Virus record (IMG/VR): IMGVR_UViG_3300031576_000213
Span: 1-33,769 of that record
DNA length: 33,769 nt
Strand: one strand, 5' to 3'
DNA from: a virus
Shown: one piece after another, positions 4,748-33,769 of the stretch
How positions within the stretch are numbered: the first letter of the stretch is position 1
Layout: every line of letters begins with the position of its first letter
Translations under genes and position numbers: made by a program
The notes under the pieces: generated by a model
Told to the model about the DNA's origin: nothing
What the model saw: only the letters and a program-made list of their open reading frames with translations
The model's database searches: none

Positions 4748-4794
4748 ATTGCCATTGATAGCGAGTCGGCGCATAATATTCGTGACTCATACAT
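4732..4794 (-). CDS. Possible 20-residue leader peptide ahead of the initiator
   Basis: ATG 4794 is preceded by AAGGA at a six-base spacing and opens a frame of 20 codons (MYESRILCADSLSMAIKNAR) ending in TGA inside the hairpin of 4707-4743. The position, 47 bases before the initiator start, suits a leader peptide. However, the KNAR ending is a frequent by-product of reading back through a GC-rich terminator. It could be chance. Confidence 0.25.
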   Translation of the reverse strand: MYESRILCADSLSMAIKNAR

Positions 4795-5111
4795 AATAAT
4801 TCCTTCAAGCCATGGCGGTCTGGCGTTATGAACTAGGTCGCCATGCGCATCAAACCCGCTCCCAAGACACTGAAGCTTGTGGGTATTAGCTCTGGGCTTT
4901 AGTGCCTTGGGGGTTGATGCGGGGACATGGGCTGTGGGTTTAGGCTCTGGACCTTGGACCATAGACCATTGGTCAATTGAACCAACGGTGCACAGCTCCG
5001 TGTCATGCTCATTTGAGGACATGAGCGACCTCAACAATTTTAGTGACGTTAAAAATTATAGTTGAAAAATCCTAACCAAGATTGTACAACATCTTTCGAA
5101 GGAAGAATCAC
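4748..5111. promoter_or_regulatory. Divergent control region between the two transcription arms
   Basis: About 360 bp that is G-richer than its surroundings and without convincing genes. It contains several dyads: GACCATTGGTC (4964-4974), an adjacent imperfect dyad with TCAATTGA at its centre (4969-4985), and GCTCAT with ATGAGC spaced by eight bases (5007-5026). GGACC repeats occur just before the first dyad. A perfect leftward TATAAT (5060-5055) lacks a good -35. These sit just upstream of the rightward promoter and suit operator or origin functions. Leftward replication genes and rightward recombination genes diverge from here. Confidence 0.5.
5062..5090 (+). promoter_or_regulatory. Probable sigma-70-type promoter of the rightward early arm
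   Basis: TTGAAA (5062-5067) and TACAAC (5085-5090) are separated by exactly 17 bases. They match the consensus at five of six and four of six positions. The predicted start near 5097 leaves a short leader that includes AAGGA eight bases before ATG 5112. All following + genes to 10132 could be read from it. Confidence 0.55.
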
Positions 5112-18023: not shown

Positions 18024-20248
18024 GAAACTGACTCCCTAGAAATCCCTAAAGCTTTGTCTTCAATCTGCCGAATAGTGAGAACTTGACTTGCCTCTCGTCC
18101 ATCAAATCCAACTGCAATTGCAGCCTGAGTGCGCCCGCCTAACCCGCCTCCTCCAAATTTCTCTGCCTCACGTGCAGCGCGCACAGACCCGATAACTTCC
18201 TCGAAATTTTGAGCCGGACTCACAAGTTCCATATTTTGAGTGAGTGTCGGGATTGAATCTAGACCTGATATCCCACCTGTCATCAGACCGCCTTGCGCAG
18301 CCGCACTCACCTTTCCAACCTGTTCAGCACCGAATAATATTGCGGCAGCTGCGCCTGCAATTCCTAATACTGGTCCGACGATTGGGATTGCAGAAAATCC
18401 TGCATAAATGTTCATTGCGGATTCCGCTGTCTTAATCACAATGCTAGCTATAGCTGCGACCTTCCCAATCGCCTTTAATTTAGAGTTTTCAGATTGTGTT
18501 AAAGCAGATAACTCACCGAATCCCTGCTTCGCTCCCTGAAAAACTTGGCTATGCATAGCCTGATTAATTGCAGCATACGCAGTACCAAATTTTTGTTGAT
18601 CCAAAAGAAATCGATTATTGGATTGAATCTGTTCGTTCATCGTCTGAACGGCATATGTATTTTTAACTGTTCTTTCAGTTTCAAACTGTCCCTGAAGATT
18701 AGCTTGATTTTGAATTAAAAAAGCCTGTTTTTGCTCATCGGTCATCGCCTGAAATTCGGAATTATTGGCTAGAATCTCTTTTTGAAATTCTTCTCTTTGG
18801 CTTTTGGTAACTTCGAACTGCTCTGCCTCTATATCTAAAAGTCGATTATATTTATCAACTAGCGCATTGTACTCCTCTTCGCTTGTGGCTTCGGCGAGAG
18901 CCTTTAGGATATCGGCTTCCTCTTGTTTGATTTTGGCTAGCTTCTCAGATCCAAGCTGAGTTTCAAATTCAAGAGCCGCACTATGAGCTTCTCTTGATTC
19001 AATTTCTAAATTTTCTCTTTCTTTATCAATAGCCGCTTTTTTATCTGCAGCCGCCTTTTTTGAAGCGTTTTGTCTTTCTTCGCTAGCGTTTTGTTGAGCT
19101 TCTATTTTTGCATTGCCATCTTCATTTGCTTTTGTGAAGTCATCAATCCCTTTTGTAAATGCATCTTTGACCTGACTGAGTCCTTCTTTTATTTTAGATA
19201 TATCGAAGTTAAAAACACCGCTTAGAATTCCGGATAATCCGGTCCCAATGATAGCGATATTATTTGTGAATGCTGCAAAAATTGCCTGCATCTGCATCCA
19301 TCTTTTTTCCCAATTTAGTGCGAGATCTGCAACAATAATGGCAATTAATCCGATTCCAGTAGCCCCCACAAGCGCTCTTGTAGCTAATGTCATAGCACTA
19401 GTTGCAATTTGTGCTGCCGCTAATGCAGCCTTAAATTTAAGAAATGCGATCCCAGCTGTTCCGACAACTGTGATAATGCCTGTAAAAATAGCTGCCGTTG
19501 TTCCAAGTTGAACGATCAAATCTAAAAGCGGTTTATTCTTGGCTATAGATAGAAAAAATTCAGTCATTCTTTTTATAATGATCTCCATAATTGGAGCGAG
19601 TCTGCTTCCGATTTCCTCTTGAAATTTACTGAATGCAGATTGAAGACCTTTTATTGCGCCTAATCCTTTATTAGCCGCCGCAGCCTGACCTTCGGCAGCT
19701 TGATTCACTTTTTCTATGATCTGAGCTGTTCTCTCTTCTTTTGTTAGATTCTCATCGATTTCAATACCTAGCTTTTTCAAAGCCGCAGTCTGTCCATTTA
19801 TTCCTTTTCCAATGAGCTGAGCCGTTGATTCAAGATCCATCTCTTTGGCAACAGATAAATCTAAGATTGATTGAGTCAGTTCAGGTGTTATTTCTTGCTG
19901 TCCGATCATGGATTGCAAAAAAGCTTGTGCGCTAATAATTGCGTCATCATCAATTCCTGTTAAAATCTGAAGTGCCGCAGCTTGATCTTTATAGCTATCC
20001 GCAAGATCTTTAGAATAAATTCCCTGATTTTGAAGTGCTGTCGTGAGCTTATTTGATGCGGCTTGGCTATCTTTGAAAGCATTAAGAGCCAATCCAGCTT
20101 CGGCTACAAGCCCGGCAAAGGCAACCGCAGATATTTTAGAAAGGCTTGCGAGAGATCCTTCGAGGTCTTCAGTTTGAGCAGAAACTTTATTAAGAGCATC
20201 AGTATAATTCTTTATATCGCCTGATATTTTGATAACTAGATCAGCCAC
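18020..20248 (-). CDS. Tail tape measure protein
   Basis: The product is 742 residues from GTG 20248. The N-terminus is a long coiled coil with small-residue repeats (LVIKISGDIKNYTDALNKVS). A hydrophobic middle around residues 255-345 could cross membranes during DNA injection. A long Glu/Lys/Gln/Ala coiled coil follows (SREAHSAALEFETQLGSEKL and on), then a Gly/Ala-rich hydrophobic region. At about 1.5 angstrom per residue the predicted tail is near 110 nm. The gene overlaps the frameshifted chaperone frame by eight bases, as expected for this position. Confidence 0.9.
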   Translation of the reverse strand: MADLVIKISGDIKNYTDALNKVSAQTEDLEGSLASLSKISAVAFAGLVAEAGLALNAFKDSQAASNKLTTALQNQGIYSKDLADSYKDQAAALQILTGIDDDAIISAQAFLQSMIGQQEITPELTQSILDLSVAKEMDLESTAQLIGKGINGQTAALKKLGIEIDENLTKEERTAQIIEKVNQAAEGQAAAANKGLGAIKGLQSAFSKFQEEIGSRLAPIMEIIIKRMTEFFLSIAKNKPLLDLIVQLGTTAAIFTGIITVVGTAGIAFLKFKAALAAAQIATSAMTLATRALVGATGIGLIAIIVADLALNWEKRWMQMQAIFAAFTNNIAIIGTGLSGILSGVFNFDISKIKEGLSQVKDAFTKGIDDFTKANEDGNAKIEAQQNASEERQNASKKAAADKKAAIDKERENLEIESREAHSAALEFETQLGSEKLAKIKQEEADILKALAEATSEEEYNALVDKYNRLLDIEAEQFEVTKSQREEFQKEILANNSEFQAMTDEQKQAFLIQNQANLQGQFETERTVKNTYAVQTMNEQIQSNNRFLLDQQKFGTAYAAINQAMHSQVFQGAKQGFGELSALTQSENSKLKAIGKVAAIASIVIKTAESAMNIYAGFSAIPIVGPVLGIAGAAAAILFGAEQVGKVSAAAQGGLMTGGISGLDSIPTLTQNMELVSPAQNFEEVIGSVRAAREAEKFGGGGLGGRTQAAIAVGFDGREASQVLTIRQIEDKALGISRESVS

Positions 20249-20959
20249 GTTTCAATTCTCTGATCTTTCTAGCCTGAGCTTCTTTGAGTGCCACAGCCAT
20301 CCCTGCCTTTTGTTGTTCGGTCAATTTATATCCAGATCCATCATCAGGAATACGGATATCGCATCCATGCATCATTGCTTCAAACTTGAATCTCTGATTC
20401 GTTCTTTTCGTGATGGCTTTAATTCTATATGAGAGTTCCCTGATCGTACGACTGAGGATATATTCTGTAGTCCATCCATATTCTGCGCTGAGGAGGTCGA
20501 TAATTTCCCCCCAATCGATGTCTTTGATTGGTTCACTTGATTTTTTTTTTCTTCTTCTTTGATGATCTCATCTTGCATAGGTCTACTAATACCCAGTGTC
20601 TGCAGGAATGCCTGCATGACTTCAATTTTCTCATTCACCCCAGAAATACAATGAAGCAAGAGCTCCGAACCTCCAAGTTTTTGATGGATTTCATGACCAG
20701 ATTCATCAATAAATGTGACATCTTTTTCTAAAAAGTCTTTTTTTGATTCTTCAGTCATAAGCCGAAATACAACCCGACTCAAAGTTACTGGACTCATATC
20801 AACTATTTTATCGACTTCTTTCCCGAATGTTTTCGCCATCCAAGATTCATCGGCAAGTGTAACTGGTCTAAGATGATAAATCTTTCCTGTGATCCTGAGT
20901 TTGAATTCTGCCGATTCTGGAATTAATTCTGAAAGATCTTTAAAATCTAGAGGTTTCAT
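20241..20959 (-). CDS. Tail assembly chaperone, predicted -1 frameshift product (gpGT-like)
   Basis: After residue 139 in the zero frame, a -1 shift on A_AAA_AAA joins a further 100 codons that end in TGA at 20241, inside the tape-measure start. The added frame starts KSSEPIKDIDWGEIIDLLSA and continues with good protein character, including TTEYILSRTIRELSYRIKA and LTEQQKAGMAVALKEAQARK. It has no start of its own near the junction. This reproduces the conserved G/GT arrangement of long-tailed phages, in which the fused form recruits the tape measure. The fused product would be 239 residues. Confidence 0.8.
20372..20959 (-). CDS. Tail assembly chaperone, zero-frame product (gpG-like)
   Basis: The product has 195 residues. 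Residues 1-139 form the helical chaperone domain (FKDLSELIPESAEFKLRITG, then LADESWMAKTFGKEVDKIVD). The zero frame continues 56 residues past the shift site, ending low-complexity and basic. It lies between the tail tube and tape-measure genes, the usual site for the pair of chaperones that coat the tape measure during tail assembly. They are not part of the finished virion in other phages. Confidence 0.75.
   Translation of the reverse strand: MKPLDFKDLSELIPESAEFKLRITGKIYHLRPVTLADESWMAKTFGKEVDKIVDMSPVTLSRVVFRLMTEESKKDFLEKDVTFIDESGHEIHQKLGGSELLLHCISGVNEKIEVMQAFLQTLGISRPMQDEIIKEEEKKNQVNQSKTSIGGKLSTSSAQNMDGLQNISSVVRSGNSHIELKPSRKERIRDSSLKQ
20541..20551 (-). promoter_or_regulatory. Programmed -1 ribosomal frameshift site
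   Basis: On the - strand a G is followed by ten A. In the zero frame this reads GAA AAA AAA AAT, giving the slippery heptamer A_AAA_AAA. Coding-quality sequence leaves the zero frame after it and continues in the -1 frame to 20241. A run of ten identical bases can also be miscounted in sequencing, but both frames would remain related by one shift. Confidence 0.75.
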
Positions 20960-20999
20960 TCACCCAGATTATCGATATAAAAAATTTCTGGCAAATGAC

Positions 21000-21027
21000 T
21001 TGCAATTTATTTCTATCATTGTATAAC
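21000..21027 (+). promoter_or_regulatory. Rightward promoter of the antisense island, apparently leaderless
   Basis: TTGCAA (21000-21005) and TATAAC (21022-21027) are spaced by 16 bases; the -10 matches at five of six. The predicted start, seven or eight bases on, falls within a base or two of ATG 21036, and no ribosome site precedes that ATG. A leaderless transcript would result, as for lambda cI from pRM. A weaker leftward promoter (TTGCCA, 15 bases, GATAAT on the - strand) overlaps the same gap and could serve the chaperone gene. Confidence 0.5.
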
Positions 21028-21035
21028 AACTATCT

Positions 21036-21191
21036 ATGGCATATCGATGCAAGCGTTGTGAATTACAAGTCCATTGTCAATGTGAGATATTAATATTCCT
21101 TGAACAGATTGAGAATCATCTCGCTAATATTGTTGAAATCATAACGAAAGATCAAAATGGGAAGAAAAAAAGAAAGAAATCCAAGAACTAA
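21036..21191 (+). CDS. 51-residue zinc-knuckle protein of the antisense island
   Basis: The product MAYRCKRCELQVHCQC and on has 51 residues. CRC-type spacing (Cys5, Cys8, Cys14, Cys16, with His13) near the N-terminus suggests one zinc site. A central helix (ILIFLEQIENHLANIVEIIT) is followed by a lysine-rich tail KKKRKKSKN. The gene runs against the surrounding tail operon and has its own promoter. It overlaps the next gene by 35 bp. The combination of zinc knuckle, helix and basic tail suits nucleic-acid binding. No family is recognised. Confidence 0.65.
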   Translation: MAYRCKRCELQVHCQCEILIFLEQIENHLANIVEIITKDQNGKKKRKKSKN

Positions 21192-21324
21192 GCACATTGG
21201 ATTCCGGGTCACATTCAAAGAATACGAGAAAGCTAGATGGTTAGCGAAAACCTATGCAAAAGGTAAAATGTCCAAATGGGCTAGGCATGGGCTTCTAAAT
21301 GCCGAGAGAGAATTTTTGAAATAA
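21157..21324 (+). CDS. 55-residue ribbon-helix-helix-like regulator candidate
   Basis: The product has 55 residues. A basic N-terminal arm (MGRKKERNPRTK) leads into a strand HIGFRVTFKEYEKA and two helices (RWLAKTYAKG, then MSKWARHGLLNAEREFL). This strand-helix-turn-helix order with a MS.W..HGLL second helix is the layout of Arc/CopG/MobC-like proteins, which bind DNA as dimers. It is co-directional and overlapping with the zinc-knuckle gene. It could repress the divergent promoters in this gap or the early region. No other transcription regulator was recognised in the genome. Confidence 0.6.
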   Translation: MGRKKERNPRTKHIGFRVTFKEYEKARWLAKTYAKGKMSKWARHGLLNAEREFLK

Positions 21325-21362
21325 AATGCAACCCACAATAAGAATGTCAGCCAAAATTCCTT

Positions 21363-21394
21363 AAAAAAGCCCAGGCATCTTTCGATGCCCAGGC
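21363..21394 (-). terminator. Leftward intrinsic terminator after the tail tube gene
   Basis: Read on the - strand, GCCTGGGCATC (21394-21384) and GATGCCTGGGC (21379-21369) pair over 11 positions, counting two G-U wobbles, around a GAAA loop. Six T follow (21368-21363). On the + strand the same stem has two mismatches and no T tract. It therefore ends leftward head and tail-tube transcripts and separates them from the chaperone and tape-measure genes. Partial read-through would set the ratio of tube to later tail proteins. Confidence 0.85.
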
Positions 21395-21436
21395 TCTGAG
21401 GTCTCCACAATGAATCGAGGTGGTTGTGGCGACTAA

Positions 21437-22324
21437 TTATGTAGGTTTCACATGTCTGAATTTAAACACTCCATCAAGAGCGCTATCGTAAAGTGCCTTG
21501 ATTTTCACTTCTGTTTCTGCAAAGGCACTCTGTTCGAATCCTAGTGGCATACCAACTGCCTTGCATCGGAATGCGTCAATCTCGGTGAGCTCTTGATTAC
21601 CCCTCTTCTGAGCCATGATGATCGATCCGAATTCAGGGAATATCTGATTCGCTACTCCTCCCACTGTGACAGTCATTGAGCCTGAATTAATCGGTCGCAC
21701 TTCGAAGGTCGCAGTATGTCCGACTGTCATTGCGATCACCCCAGATCCGCCAGTGAGTTTCAATCCGAAATTCGGAATATTCGTATTACCGCCAGTTGTG
21801 ATCGTCAATGCACTTGATGTGATCTTGAGTGCATCATTTTGGAATGAGCCGTCTGTACCCCTGCCAATATCTGCGTCCGACGAAAAGAATACGTCTACTG
21901 TAGTGGAACTGATAACCTTGACAACATATTTTCCGAATTTGAGATCCGCTTCAGATGCGGCTAGCGCTGTTACAGAAGCGATACCAGTCACAGCATCAAC
22001 CGTTGTAGTTCCGAATTTATCAACAATTGTCGAAACATTGCCTAAAGTTTCAGCTGAATTCGATGTTGGAGCTGCGCCAAGGAATAATTCAAACATGAAA
22101 TCCTCAAATTGAGATACCTTCAAAGAAATCTCGGATGTGATCGCACCGTCTTCAGATGCCCATGGATACTTCGAGCTTCCGCCCATGAGATCAATCAATT
22201 CCCCGGACAGGGCAAGAGAACTGCCCTTCAAAACTCTAACCTCCCCATAGAAAAGTCCGGTGCTTCGATTATATGGAGTGAAACTATGAATTCCAAAAAA
22301 TACTCTTGGATCTGAAAGTGCCAT
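21437..22324 (-). CDS. Major tail tube protein
   Basis: The product has 295 residues. The N-terminal 80 residues carry a tube-protein style lead (FFGIHSFTPYNRSTGLFYGE, SGELIDLMGGSSKYPW, then SLKVSQFEDFMFELFLG). A Thr/Ser/Gly/Val-rich middle may be an inserted Ig-like domain. The end is TEIDAFRCKAVGMPLGFEQS and VKIKALYDSALDGVFKFR. Its place between head-completion genes and the chaperones, and the strong terminator right after it, fit a highly expressed tube subunit. Several tubes carry such insertions on the outside. Confidence 0.75.
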   Translation of the reverse strand: MALSDPRVFFGIHSFTPYNRSTGLFYGEVRVLKGSSLALSGELIDLMGGSSKYPWASEDGAITSEISLKVSQFEDFMFELFLGAAPTSNSAETLGNVSTIVDKFGTTTVDAVTGIASVTALAASEADLKFGKYVVKVISSTTVDVFFSSDADIGRGTDGSFQNDALKITSSALTITTGGNTNIPNFGLKLTGGSGVIAMTVGHTATFEVRPINSGSMTVTVGGVANQIFPEFGSIIMAQKRGNQELTEIDAFRCKAVGMPLGFEQSAFAETEVKIKALYDSALDGVFKFRHVKPT

Positions 22325-29888: not shown

Positions 29889-31315
29889 AGATTTTCGCTA
29901 CTCAATTTATTTGCGATTGTGGCATTATTTATATTTTTAGACACTTCTTTTGGAAATTCGCCAACCATTTTCTCTGTAAGTACATGAAATGCGCCTGAGA
30001 GTGCGTCAATTTGATCGTCGTGTTTCCCATCTGGGAAGTTTTGCAGCTCAGTAAAAAATTCTTCGTTCCATCTCGCGCGTAGTACTTTCACATTGCCTGC
30101 CTCACATTGCGATGAGATCGGGAGTGCGCGCGTGACTTTATCAGTCATAACTTTATTTACTTTGACGCGATATCCCGCAAGTGATCGGACATAATCCTGT
30201 GCGTCAACCACTCCAGCCTGTCCTGGGTCCTGCTCGATACCGATTGTACATCGTTCGGAATCCTGGCTAGCGCTGTTCAGAATCGCTCGCTTGACGTTCA
30301 AAGGCGATTCCCTAATCCTCACTATGTCAGCCACATAAAAAACGCCCTGCCGGTCACGCAGGAGTTTTAAACCCACAGTGTAATCTGGATCTCTGCTCAT
30401 ATTCGCTTCTGTAACCTTAGTTGACGCTCGGTCCCAATAACGACACGCCACAGCATCGGATGGGACTGTGTCAATTAATTCAAACCATGACTTTTGAAAA
30501 TAGAGACCAGCTGAGGGCTCGACATTCCAATTCCCCTCGAGAAGTCTCATACGCTCAACGCGTGGCAATGCCATGAGATTCGCCCTATAGCTAGGATCTT
30601 TCTCCATCAAAATCTTATTATCTTCGAGCTTGGCTGCAATGAATGTTACCGATTTCGGTTGTTGCTCTATGCCATATTTTTTGATTAGTTCTGCTTTCGA
30701 ATCTGCCCAGATTATCTGGTCATCGATCCTGATAAACCAACGAATCACTCCAGACCTCTTTGATATTGCATAGCCCGTTTTCTCATCAATCCACCATTGA
30801 ATAAATCGCTTCACCCAAGATCTAGCATCGGGATTACACGTCGAACGAATATATCCAGGTATCCCGGTATCGGATCTATTCCGACCAAGCATGTAGAAGA
30901 ATTGGAATTCAGTAAAGTGCGTGAGTTCATCGAATCCAATAAATGGGATCTGGGATCCCTGCCAATCATAAACATTCTTTTCATATTCTAAATGAGCAAA
31001 CTTCAATTTCATTCCAGTACTGAATATACATTCAAGTGTGCTGCTTTTTAATTCAACGCCAATAGGATTATAAAGTTTTACAGCTTGATCCCATAGAGCT
31101 CCTTCGTTTCGGATCTGAGGCATAGTCCTTCTGAAGATGACTGCACCGAATTCTTTATCCTTGAGATTGCGAAGTGGTTCCATCAAAAGCGTGTATGATT
31201 TCCCACAGCCCGCCGCTCCTCCAAAGATTAAAATATCAGCGATAGATTCCATCGCCTGATATTGCGGACCGGGTTGTGGATCGATATCAATTTTGATTTG
31301 GTGACTCGCGCCCAT
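29882..31315 (-). CDS. terL: Terminase large subunit
   Basis: The product has 477 residues. The ATPase domain shows Walker A GGAAGCGKS (32-40), RRTMPQIRNEGALW, and Walker B with IPFIGFDELTHF. The nuclease domain has acidic motifs in ACRYWDRASTK, IGIEQDPGQAGVVDAQDYV, and KHDDQIDALSGAFHVL. It cuts concatemers and pumps DNA into the head. Its start overlaps the small-subunit gene by 29 bp and lacks a clear ribosome site, pointing to translational coupling. Confidence 0.9.
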   Translation of the reverse strand: MGASHQIKIDIDPQPGPQYQAMESIADILIFGGAAGCGKSYTLLMEPLRNLKDKEFGAVIFRRTMPQIRNEGALWDQAVKLYNPIGVELKSSTLECIFSTGMKLKFAHLEYEKNVYDWQGSQIPFIGFDELTHFTEFQFFYMLGRNRSDTGIPGYIRSTCNPDARSWVKRFIQWWIDEKTGYAISKRSGVIRWFIRIDDQIIWADSKAELIKKYGIEQQPKSVTFIAAKLEDNKILMEKDPSYRANLMALPRVERMRLLEGNWNVEPSAGLYFQKSWFELIDTVPSDAVACRYWDRASTKVTEANMSRDPDYTVGLKLLRDRQGVFYVADIVRIRESPLNVKRAILNSASQDSERCTIGIEQDPGQAGVVDAQDYVRSLAGYRVKVNKVMTDKVTRALPISSQCEAGNVKVLRARWNEEFFTELQNFPDGKHDDQIDALSGAFHVLTEKMVGEFPKEVSKNINNATIANKLSSENLW

Positions 31316-31625
31316 TTTTTGGAAGTGTAATCACAACTTGCGGGGCATTAAAATCATGAATATTCTGTGTTTGATCTTTATATCCAAGCATCTGTTTACT
31401 AAGCCAGATCATCATCGTCACATTGCCGCCCTGAGCTGTTTCCCACATTTTTCTTTTGAGAGATGACTTGCCGTGTTCACGTCCCTTTTCTATAGATGCG
31501 GCAAAACGCCTCTCAAGAGTTCTTTTATCGCATCCTATAACAGCCGCTATTTCTGATACAGTGCAGTTAATGGCTGCTAGATTTTCAACTGTATTGGGAT
31601 CTATATTTAATTTAGGTCTCGCCAT
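31287..31625 (-). CDS. terS: Terminase small subunit
   Basis: The product has 112 residues. Residues 8-40 form a helix-turn-helix (DPNTVENLAAINCTVSEIAA, VIGCDKRTLERRF) that would bind packaging DNA. The middle (EHGKSSLKRKMWETAQGGN, MMIWLSKQMLGYKDQ) is the oligomerising helix pair typical of these proteins. AAGG lies seven bases upstream. It directly precedes the large subunit. Confidence 0.8.
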   Translation of the reverse strand: MARPKLNIDPNTVENLAAINCTVSEIAAVIGCDKRTLERRFAASIEKGREHGKSSLKRKMWETAQGGNVTMMIWLSKQMLGYKDQTQNIHDFNAPQVVITLPKNGRESPNQN

Positions 31626-32133
31626 TAATCAGCCTTGCTTTCTGTCCTGTATAATTCTCCCACCGCGTTATAATTACGTCAATATAATGCGGACAGAGTT
31701 CCATCATAAAGCATTTACGATTAGTTTTCTCACAGGCAATCAGGGTTGATCCTGAGCCTCCGAAAAGGTCAAGAACAGACCCCACTGAAAAAGTAGAAAT
31801 AAAATGCTCGGCGAATGCAACCGGAAATACAGCTCGGTGGTTCTTTGCAAGTGGATCCTTTTTTCCAGCTGGATTTAGTCTGTATATATTATTTACAGTG
31901 CCACGGAAATCAGGAGCTGTTGTTATCGATCTTTTTGGATATTCTTTGTCTGTTAAAATAAATATAAATTCAAAAACAGAATTAAGAACACGCGATGCCA
32001 TAGCTGGAGCCGAGTGTTCTTTATCCCATATCATAATATCGACAAGATTTTTCTTAAAAGTTTGCAAATAATCTGGTAGAACTAACTTATTGTTCGCTAA
32101 TATTTGGATGTTTGAAAAGACTATTTTAGAGTT
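31612..32133 (-). pseudogene. C-terminal half of an N4/N6 DNA methyltransferase, catalytic half missing
   Basis: The frame is open from 32334 but protein-like only from about 32133. It carries FSNIQILANNKLVLPDYLQT, DIMIWDKEHSAPAMASRVLN, TTAPDFRGTVNNIYRLNP, and the SAM-binding motif LDLFGGSGSTLIACEKTNRK. In this beta-class layout the DPPY catalytic motif lies upstream, and it is absent. The upstream ParB-like frame ends at 32126 in a different frame. Removing one A from the AAAAAA at 32132-32137 would fuse the two frames, yet the DPPY region would still be missing. An internal deletion plus a frameshift is the best reading. Confidence 0.7.
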
Positions 32134-32551
32134 TTTTAGCGCTAAGATTGTCCACATATTTAAGTCCGAGTAGATTGATATTGAAATCTGATGATAATCC
32201 TGGGATGTCCATATTGACGCCAGAGAGATTGAATTCAGCCCATAATGCAATCGCATTATCAGCTTGAATATCAGCATATTCTTGATCTTCCGATTCATAA
32301 TCTTGAAAATTAACTGGAATTTCTTTCCATTCATTCAGAATCGCAGCATCAAGTCTGCCGTGTCCAGAAGTAATGAAACCCGAAAGATTGCTAATCTTGA
32401 TTGGATACCGCCATCCTTGATATCTCAGAATCTCTGCAAGTCTTCTTATTTGATCCGGGGGATGTTTATTTCTATTCTTCGGATGCCGCTTCAATTCGGT
32501 GACTGGAATTAGTTTATTATAGAGACATCTAATCTTCATTGCGGCTGACAT
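32126..32551 (-). CDS. ParB/Srx-like N-terminal domain, remnant of a ParB-methyltransferase fusion
   Basis: The product has 141 residues; GAGGG lies eight bases before ATG 32551. It shows the ParB-like fold of phage ParB-methyltransferase fusions: LIPVTELKRHPKNRN, IRRLAEILRYQGWRYPIKIS, and GFITSGHGRLDAAIL with the GHGR motif (63-66), then YADIQADNAIALWAEFN. The frame stops five codons after the point at which methyltransferase sequence begins in another frame. Such domains may guide the methyltransferase to DNA; alone its role is unclear. Confidence 0.7.
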   Translation of the reverse strand: MSAAMKIRCLYNKLIPVTELKRHPKNRNKHPPDQIRRLAEILRYQGWRYPIKISNLSGFITSGHGRLDAAILNEWKEIPVNFQDYESEDQEYADIQADNAIALWAEFNLSGVNMDIPGLSSDFNINLLGLKYVDNLSAKKL

Positions 32552-33138: not shown

Positions 33139-33469
33139 ATGCGTGTAACCAAAATGGCAATCTTTTTGTTGTGCTTGAATTATTTTGTCTTGTTATTCTC
33201 ATAAATTTAATGCCGTCCCCAATGAATTCCCTATTTATAATAATTTCAACCGTATTTCCAGTTAATGCGAATACAATAATTTCCTCGAAATTTCCAACTA
33301 TCCCCCATTGAACTAAATATGCAGACGATTTATTATCGCCCATATTTATGTCTGCTCCACCCGCTTTAATCATGATTAATTTTTTACCATTCAAAATGGG
33401 AGATCCATCTAAATTTACAGTGGCACCTGCATTTACATTATTTAATAATAATATCCGTCTATCCGCCAT
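33128..33469 (-). CDS. Diverged third copy of the small surface-type protein (B3)
   Basis: The product has 113 residues; AGGG lies seven bases upstream and the start overlaps the end of B2 by 11 bp. The centre (DNKSSAYLVQWGIVGNFEEI) and REFIGDGIKFMRITRQNNSS align with IGDGVKILRIS of B1 and IGDGSKILRII of B2. The DYIIPNG lead is replaced by a Gly/Asn-rich start. Two tandem B-type genes after A2 show that this family has expanded here. A virion surface role is inferred from context. Confidence 0.7.
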   Translation of the reverse strand: MADRRILLLNNVNAGATVNLDGSPILNGKKLIMIKAGGADINMGDNKSSAYLVQWGIVGNFEEIIVFALTGNTVEIIINREFIGDGIKFMRITRQNNSSTTKRLPFWLHAYDE

Positions 33470-33769
33470 AAACAGTCCCTAAATTATACCCGCCTAAAAT
33501 TCTATTCACTGAATCATTGTTTGTCAGAATAATTCTCAGAATTTTAGAGCCATCGCCAATTAATTGTGTTTGACTTTTTTGTGTCGAATTGCCGGTGCTC
33601 GACAATAAAATCAGATTGATTCCATTTGGATCCCAAACGATGTCAACTCTAGTATTGAAATTGCCATTACAATTTAACCCCAACTCTTCTAAAAGGAATA
33701 TTTTCCCATTGGGAATAATATAATCTTGCTGATCGGTGGTTAACAGATTTACCAATTTATAAAATCTAT
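33459..33769 (-). CDS. 3' part of the join-spanning small surface-type protein (B2)
   Basis: This is the right-hand part of the gene whose ATG is at 149 on the left end. The window copy is open to its right edge because the 127-bp overlap repeats the same bases. Read around the circle it runs 149 to 1, then 33642 to 33459, for 110 residues. Motifs include DYIIPNG, a DIVWDPNGIN segment, and QLIGDGSKILRIILTNN. A TTG at 33755 is an internal codon and not the true start. Confidence 0.85.
   Translation of the reverse strand, partial: RFYKLVNLLTTDQQDYIIPNGKIFLLEELGLNCNGNFNTRVDIVWDPNGINLILLSSTGNSTQKSQTQLIGDGSKILRIILTNNDSVNRILGGYNLGTVYGG
33643..33769. repeat. Terminal direct repeat, right copy (assembly overlap)
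   Basis: Identical to bases 1-127. Deleting one copy yields a 33,642-bp circle in which the gene from 149 to 33459 is intact. Confidence 0.95.

Follow-up and report, generated by a model that had tools for sequence, protein, structure and literature searches.

Phage morons are small, dispensable genes that form a unit of their own beside a terminator, between morphogenesis genes. Another known arrangement is the immI region (mnt, arc, ant) of the short-tailed temperate phage P22, which is flanked by genes 16 and 9 and serves an antirepressor. Arc and Mnt act on each other's expression and on that of ant, repressing within the immI region (PMC11016777), and phage L retains a lone mnt-like gene together with a short gene of unknown function (PMC8022706). 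Here we analyzed a small antisense island in the tail operon of the viral record IMGVR_UViG_3300031576_000213, whose whole stretch of 33,769 bases (40% G+C) is referred to as the window. The structural genes of the window lie on the minus strand in the order terminase, portal, protease, major head protein, connector proteins, tube, chaperone, and tape measure. Phage tail genes are usually treated as a single block running in one direction; amid this leftward tail block, an island at 21036-21324 runs on the plus strand and carries the gene of a predicted ribbon-helix-helix (RHH) protein. We lean towards reading the island as a switch that regulates itself and acts locally on the chaperone/tape-measure half of the tail operon.

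The antisense gene between the tube and chaperone genes

The initial annotation had described two overlapping short genes opposed to the surrounding tail genes, and both frames were confirmed. The features of the region are as follows.

21157-21324, plus strand: gene of a predicted RHH-type DNA-binding protein (55 residues), running opposite to the tail genes; the part of the island that is conserved
21036-21191, plus strand: open frame of 51 residues that lies 5' of the RHH gene and overlaps it; possibly a leader gene
20372-20959, minus strand: gene of a G-like tail assembly chaperone, reading away from the RHH gene, with homologues downstream of the tube gene in relatives
21437-22324, minus strand: probable major tail tube protein gene, named from where it lies in the tail block; it converges on the RHH gene and served as the anchor for locating relatives
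about 21368-21400, minus strand: intrinsic leftward terminator of the tube gene, identified by its hairpin score
21019-21029, unstranded: candidate operator TTGTATAACAA (TTGT-N3-ACAA), the sole N3 match in the window
21056-21068, unstranded: tentative second half-site pair TTGTGAATTACAA (TTGT-N5-ACAA) within the 51-residue frame, the sole N5 match in the window
21000-21027, plus strand: proposed -35/-10 pair TTGCAA-16-TATAAC of the antisense transcript, read from the sequence

Relatives were located through the tube: the protein detected 10 viral loci at 49-64% identity, and a tube alignment detected 38 viral loci and, beyond these, one contig filed under a Candidatus Paceibacterota metagenome-assembled genome (MAG). 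An RHH homologue lay antisense in the tube-chaperone gap in 33 of the 39 informative tube-bearing records (the window counted; L016 ends too early to tell and was left out), and the gene was missing from L013, L037, L042, L044, L045, and L046. When an RHH profile was run over the 7836 stop-to-stop frames of the loci, matches at E ≤ 0.5 occurred only antisense in the gap downstream of the tube gene; the sole other match, in two overlapping copies of one record, was a chance one (E 0.68). The contig of L015 ends just past the tube gene and carries the RHH gene at its opposite end, as a circular genome cut in the gap would do. When viral contigs were scanned independently with the RHH alignment, 22 loci were returned, every one at the tube-chaperone gap, including two (L051 and L063) that had not been reached through the tube and that showed the identical arrangement. 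The sequences are partly non-independent, as L018, L021, L022, L024, L025, L027, and L031 form a close group, and many of the records are fragmentary.

Within close clusters, the ratio of nonsynonymous to synonymous substitution rates (dN/dS) of the RHH gene was about 0.04-0.15, indicating purifying selection. The distances between RHH proteins were correlated with those between tube proteins (Mantel r = 0.76; 0 of 2000 permutations as high, with a permutation maximum of 0.36), implying that the RHH gene has long been together with its neighbour and is not a recent arrival. A recently acquired moron, with a history independent of the flanking genes, was rejected on these values. Taken from these comparisons, 21157-21324 (+) is evidently a real gene, and the homologues in the same gap support the annotated antisense RHH-type regulator within the tail operon. 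The initial annotation had also expected homologous pairs of 51- and 55-residue proteins at this gap in related phages; this held for the RHH frame, whereas the 51-residue frame had no relatives.

With the island proteins as queries, relatives were reached only by the RHH alignment; scanning viral contigs with the single sequence of the RHH or the 51-residue protein gave none that was confirmed. Among 50,697 phage records, no match was obtained by nucleotide search of the tail region or by tblastn with the tube protein or an RHH consensus. The annotated genes of Methanoculleus virus L4768, which is close in terminase, all lie on one strand, with no antisense gene annotated in the tail. Literature searches for an RHH gene within the tail operon of a phage, or in the setting of a moron, turned up nothing specific.

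The contents of the gap varied among the relatives. L013, close in tube (64%), holds there a different 51-residue antisense frame with a Shine-Dalgarno-like site, after 3770, and the gap of L032 (L009) holds an enlarged island of four antisense small frames with a repeated TTTTGTCATACGTTTT ahead of the first. Homing-type endonucleases occurred at the gap in three loci: an HNH domain in frame with RHH in L038 (6310-6931, minus strand), a likely GIY-YIG domain in L041 that is likewise in frame with RHH and is truncated where the contig ends (7951-8454, minus strand; E 0.0098), and an HNH gene of its own on the sense strand in L028 (7587-8696, plus strand). L048 (JALHRC010000012.1) is the contig of this phage group that was binned in the Candidatus Paceibacterota MAG, which gives a weak hint of the host and may be a binning error. 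An integrase was found only in the L036 record and the MAG among the records searched.

The class of the 55-residue protein was assigned from profile matches and a structural model. Members of the family most commonly matched Pfam NikA-like (21 of 29 members, best E 3.3e-6), ahead of TacA1, RHH_1, RHH_7, and MobC_2; the window protein itself scored 15 bits against NikA-like (PF21983), the family cut-off being 27. R17, Y33, and S39 (window numbering) were invariant in the 29-row alignment. The AlphaFold monomer model (mean predicted local distance difference test score 88.6) placed an extended segment before helices 20-33 and 38-48, giving the strand-helix-helix topology of about 45 residues in the predicted monomer; the ribbon itself forms only in the dimer. 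In a VIA-align comparison of the model with five chains, the matches to ArtA (Z 6.3 over 50 residues), AtaR (5.4), and NikR (4.6) were all to RHH proteins, at Z values under 8, which can mean merely a common arrangement. Foldseek gave no significant match against PDB (best E 6.7) or BFVD (best E 0.89). The family matches of the members and the model support the annotated RHH-like protein at 21157-21324.

The 51-residue frame had been called a zinc-knuckle protein. Its Cys/His spacing is C-x2-C-x5-H-C-x-C, which differs from CX2CX4HX4C, and no zinc-knuckle family (zf-CCHC) was matched above threshold in Pfam; the CCHC identity was therefore rejected. No relative of the frame was found in viral contigs or in the fetched loci, so the "conserved pair" of genes is unsupported, and the frame may not be a gene. 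Other short frames precede the RHH gene in L040, L032, and L022, and an upstream small gene is thus possible in the window.

The tube terminator and the putative divergent control region

The window terminator, AGCCTGGGCATC(GAAA)GATGCCTGGGCT followed by TTTTT, has a 12-pair stem and a GAAA loop and scored 23, compared with a shuffle maximum of 16. A similar leftward terminator follows the tube gene in most relatives, including L045 and L046, which carry no RHH gene. The leftward terminator annotated beside the island was thus present and strong; because it terminates the tube transcript and is also found in relatives without the RHH gene, it belongs to the tube gene and not to the antisense unit. 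It separates tube from chaperone and tape measure.

The RHH and chaperone genes diverge from a common region, in which a palindrome was enriched. In one subgroup of relatives, this region carries TGTGATCACA or a one-mismatch form of it; over whole records of up to 30.9 kb, the pattern (up to 1 mismatch) occurred once in nine of the ten subgroup records and twice in the tenth. Other subgroups carry TTGTACGTACAA (L035), TTGTCATGACAA (L003), TTGTGCATACAA (L023), and TTGTAGTTACAA (L034), and these variants yield the general form TTGT-N4-ACAA. The perfect form was present in 7 of 25 RHH/chaperone divergent regions, compared with an expectation of 0.16 for stretches drawn at random from these loci (400 draws, the largest of which gave 3), and at least 7 of the 8 half-site positions were matched in 15 of the 25 (1.8 expected). 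N3, N5, and reversed TTGT/ACAA controls showed no enrichment in the same regions of the relatives (0 each). Scored by palindromicity alone over 12 bp, the signal was weaker than with the half-sites (5 observed, 0.75 expected). This enrichment in the divergent region is new here.

The distance from the palindrome center to the chaperone start was narrowly distributed (mean 55 nucleotides (nt), standard deviation 12, 20 loci; mostly 49-64, extremes 13 and 79), and the low value of 13 nt, from L023, is an artefact of an upstream ATG taken as the chaperone start. The distance to the RHH start in 20 loci was far more variable (mean 66 nt, standard deviation 65, range -2 to 200). From these spreads, the palindrome stands at a steady distance from the chaperone gene, and the RHH leader is variable. 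The N3 site of the window is centered 65 nt upstream of the chaperone start and covers the proposed -10; its position agrees with the operators of the relatives and its spacing departs from the N4 form of the family, making it a tentative operator. TATCGAT was considered as an alternative window operator and rejected, because its 19 matches (9.1 expected) are spread across the genome and are not a local signal. The initial annotation had further suggested checking the RHH-like protein for binding to 4748-5111; no perfect TTGT-N3/4/5-ACAA site lies within that stretch, which gives this second target no support.

A promoter scan of the window gave 4 promoter-like sites, compared with 4.6 expected in shuffles, and the annotated pair TTGCAA-16-TATAAC was within chance and fails the scan's T-at-6 rule. 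A Shine-Dalgarno match of at least 4 nt preceded only 11 of 31 island starts (both window frames included), whereas tube genes had one in 38 of 40 cases and chaperone genes in 18 of 25. The poverty of island starts in Shine-Dalgarno matches agrees with the leaderless promoter claimed for the island, and some RHH members may plausibly have a short leader or none; as no promoter rose above chance, the leaderless claim goes no further than plausible. Poly-G runs of 7-9 were observed in the RHH leader of one subgroup (L018, L021, L022, L024, L025, and L027), located roughly 10-30 nt and 100-180 nt ahead of the RHH start. Their length varies between close relatives, and such runs are rare elsewhere in these AT-rich loci; they could reflect slippage-varied expression or assembly noise.

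A proposed local switch and its alternatives

In the switch that we favour, the tube gene would stop at its own terminator, and the downstream half (chaperone, tape measure, tail tip) would therefore depend on read-through or on a start of its own. One control region carrying TTGT-N4-ACAA would serve both divergent genes, RHH and chaperone; the predicted RHH dimer would most likely bind this palindrome and, by repression rather than activation, restrict both its own production and initiation of the chaperone/tape-measure transcript. We further envisage, as a speculative and rather doubtful extension, that the RHH protein sets the amount of the second tail half and that late read-through, crossing the RHH gene in the opposite sense, silences the regulator and makes it a self-erasing timer for tail assembly. 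The island had been annotated as the only recognisable regulator of the genome. Pfam and PHROGs scans of 33 window frames gave no other transcription regulator above threshold, and the only weak helix-turn-helix match among these frames was in 31287-31625, likely the small terminase subunit; the claim stands for the scanned frames, several short ones lying outside the scan.

Several observations weigh against the switch. The TTGT-N4-ACAA consensus was derived from the same regions in which it was tested, and close kinship reduces the seven perfect sites to about five independent ones. RHH-bearing loci L012, L014, L036, L048, and L051 have no clear TTGT-N4-ACAA site, the window holds only the N3 and N5 forms, and some relatives (L037, L045, and L046) do without the RHH gene. 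The fixed chaperone distance could instead reflect an RHH promoter at a fixed distance followed by a variable leader. Finally, E. coli-type sigma-70 promoter scores in 19 relatives were no better than those of shuffles (mean z 0.28 on the RHH strand and 0.40 on the chaperone strand); with no signal above chance on either strand, the chaperone promoter is putative.

The alternative that survives best, although we give it clearly less credence than the switch, is that of a self-contained moron or accessory regulator, in which the RHH protein would control only its own promoter through the palindrome, its key target would lie elsewhere (on the host chromosome or in co-infecting phages), and the tail operon would be a tolerated home. 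The dispensability of the gene, which is absent from six relatives, is in line with this explanation, as are the extra small genes that the island at times holds (L032 and L040), the essentially single-copy palindrome of the subgroup records, and the possibly variable poly-G leader. In contrast, the co-divergence with the tube gene and the strict position favour a local role, and the operator keeps its distance to the chaperone gene rather than to the RHH start. The moron status suggested by the initial annotation is thereby upheld as regards the relatives without the gene and the islands with extra small genes, and contradicted by the co-divergence.

It is improbable that the RHH protein is the DNA-targeting part of a mobile endonuclease, either a remnant or a free-standing partner of homing endonucleases entering the gap. 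The HNH-RHH fusion of L038, the likely GIY-YIG-RHH fusion of L041, and the HNH gene in the L028 gap would fit such an origin, but 30 of the 33 RHH-bearing records show no endonuclease alongside, and the long co-divergence with the tube gene and the strong purifying selection fit a resident gene visited by endonucleases.

An antitoxin role, with the 51-residue frame as partner, appears quite unlikely. RHH is a common antitoxin fold, weak TacA1 matches were obtained, and the two frames overlap; against this, the 51-residue partner is not conserved and the RHH gene stands alone in most relatives. A type II toxin-antitoxin pair was rejected, no conserved toxin partner having been found. We attach equally little weight to an antisense RNA against the tube or chaperone mRNA, in which the transcript and not the protein would matter: the antisense direction is kept even in L013, with its different small antisense frame and Shine-Dalgarno-like site, but a dN/dS well below 1 implies that selection acts on the RHH protein. 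Chance open frames, with which the 51-residue frame alone would be compatible, are scarcely credible as an explanation and are refuted for the RHH frame by its conserved place, direction, fold, and codons.

If the local switch is correct, these phages tune the tube and tape-measure halves of their tails separately. The RHH gene is short enough for gene callers to miss, and the pattern described here provides a simple search rule for other phage groups.

Neighbouring features and comparison with known systems

Other features of the window were recorded. A run of ten A residues (A10) lies near 20541-20550 in the chaperone gene, with frames on either side of it; the chaperone gene likely continues by a -1 frameshift at this run into a T-like frame ending near 20241, which resembles the programmed frameshifting of lambda G/GT. 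At 31612-32551, a DNA methyltransferase is divided over two overlapping frames, a short upstream one and a downstream one with the N6/N4 methylase domain, representing either a broken gene or a sequencing error. Similar small proteins with a DYIIPNG motif were read by eye at both record ends (33459-33755 and 1651-1986); the record may be one circular genome, or the gene may be duplicated.

The predicted RHH protein resembles several known regulators in part. ArtA, an RHH regulator of staphylococcal plasmids (PDB 3gxq), regulates its own and nearby genes. It was the best structural match of the model and has a DNA-binding RHH fold, but it shares 12% identity with the window protein and serves plasmid transfer genes, not phage tail genes. 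The NikA-like family, the best sequence family for most members, comprises mobilization proteins; none of the scanned window proteins was recognised as a relaxase or transfer protein. Like morons, the RHH gene is small, dispensable, and located by a terminator among morphogenesis genes; unlike them, it is antisense and shares the history of its neighbour instead of being a recent acquisition.

The window scans, which covered only part of the frames, turned up no ant-like gene, and the window differs from P22 immI in having one RHH gene, at the tube-chaperone gap. The immI region nevertheless appears to be the nearest known arrangement, an analogue by arrangement and predicted fold that is set beside the window with no claim of sequence kinship: of the traits of an immI-type RHH regulator inside a late operon, the island shows the place and direction, and a transcript of its own is putative.
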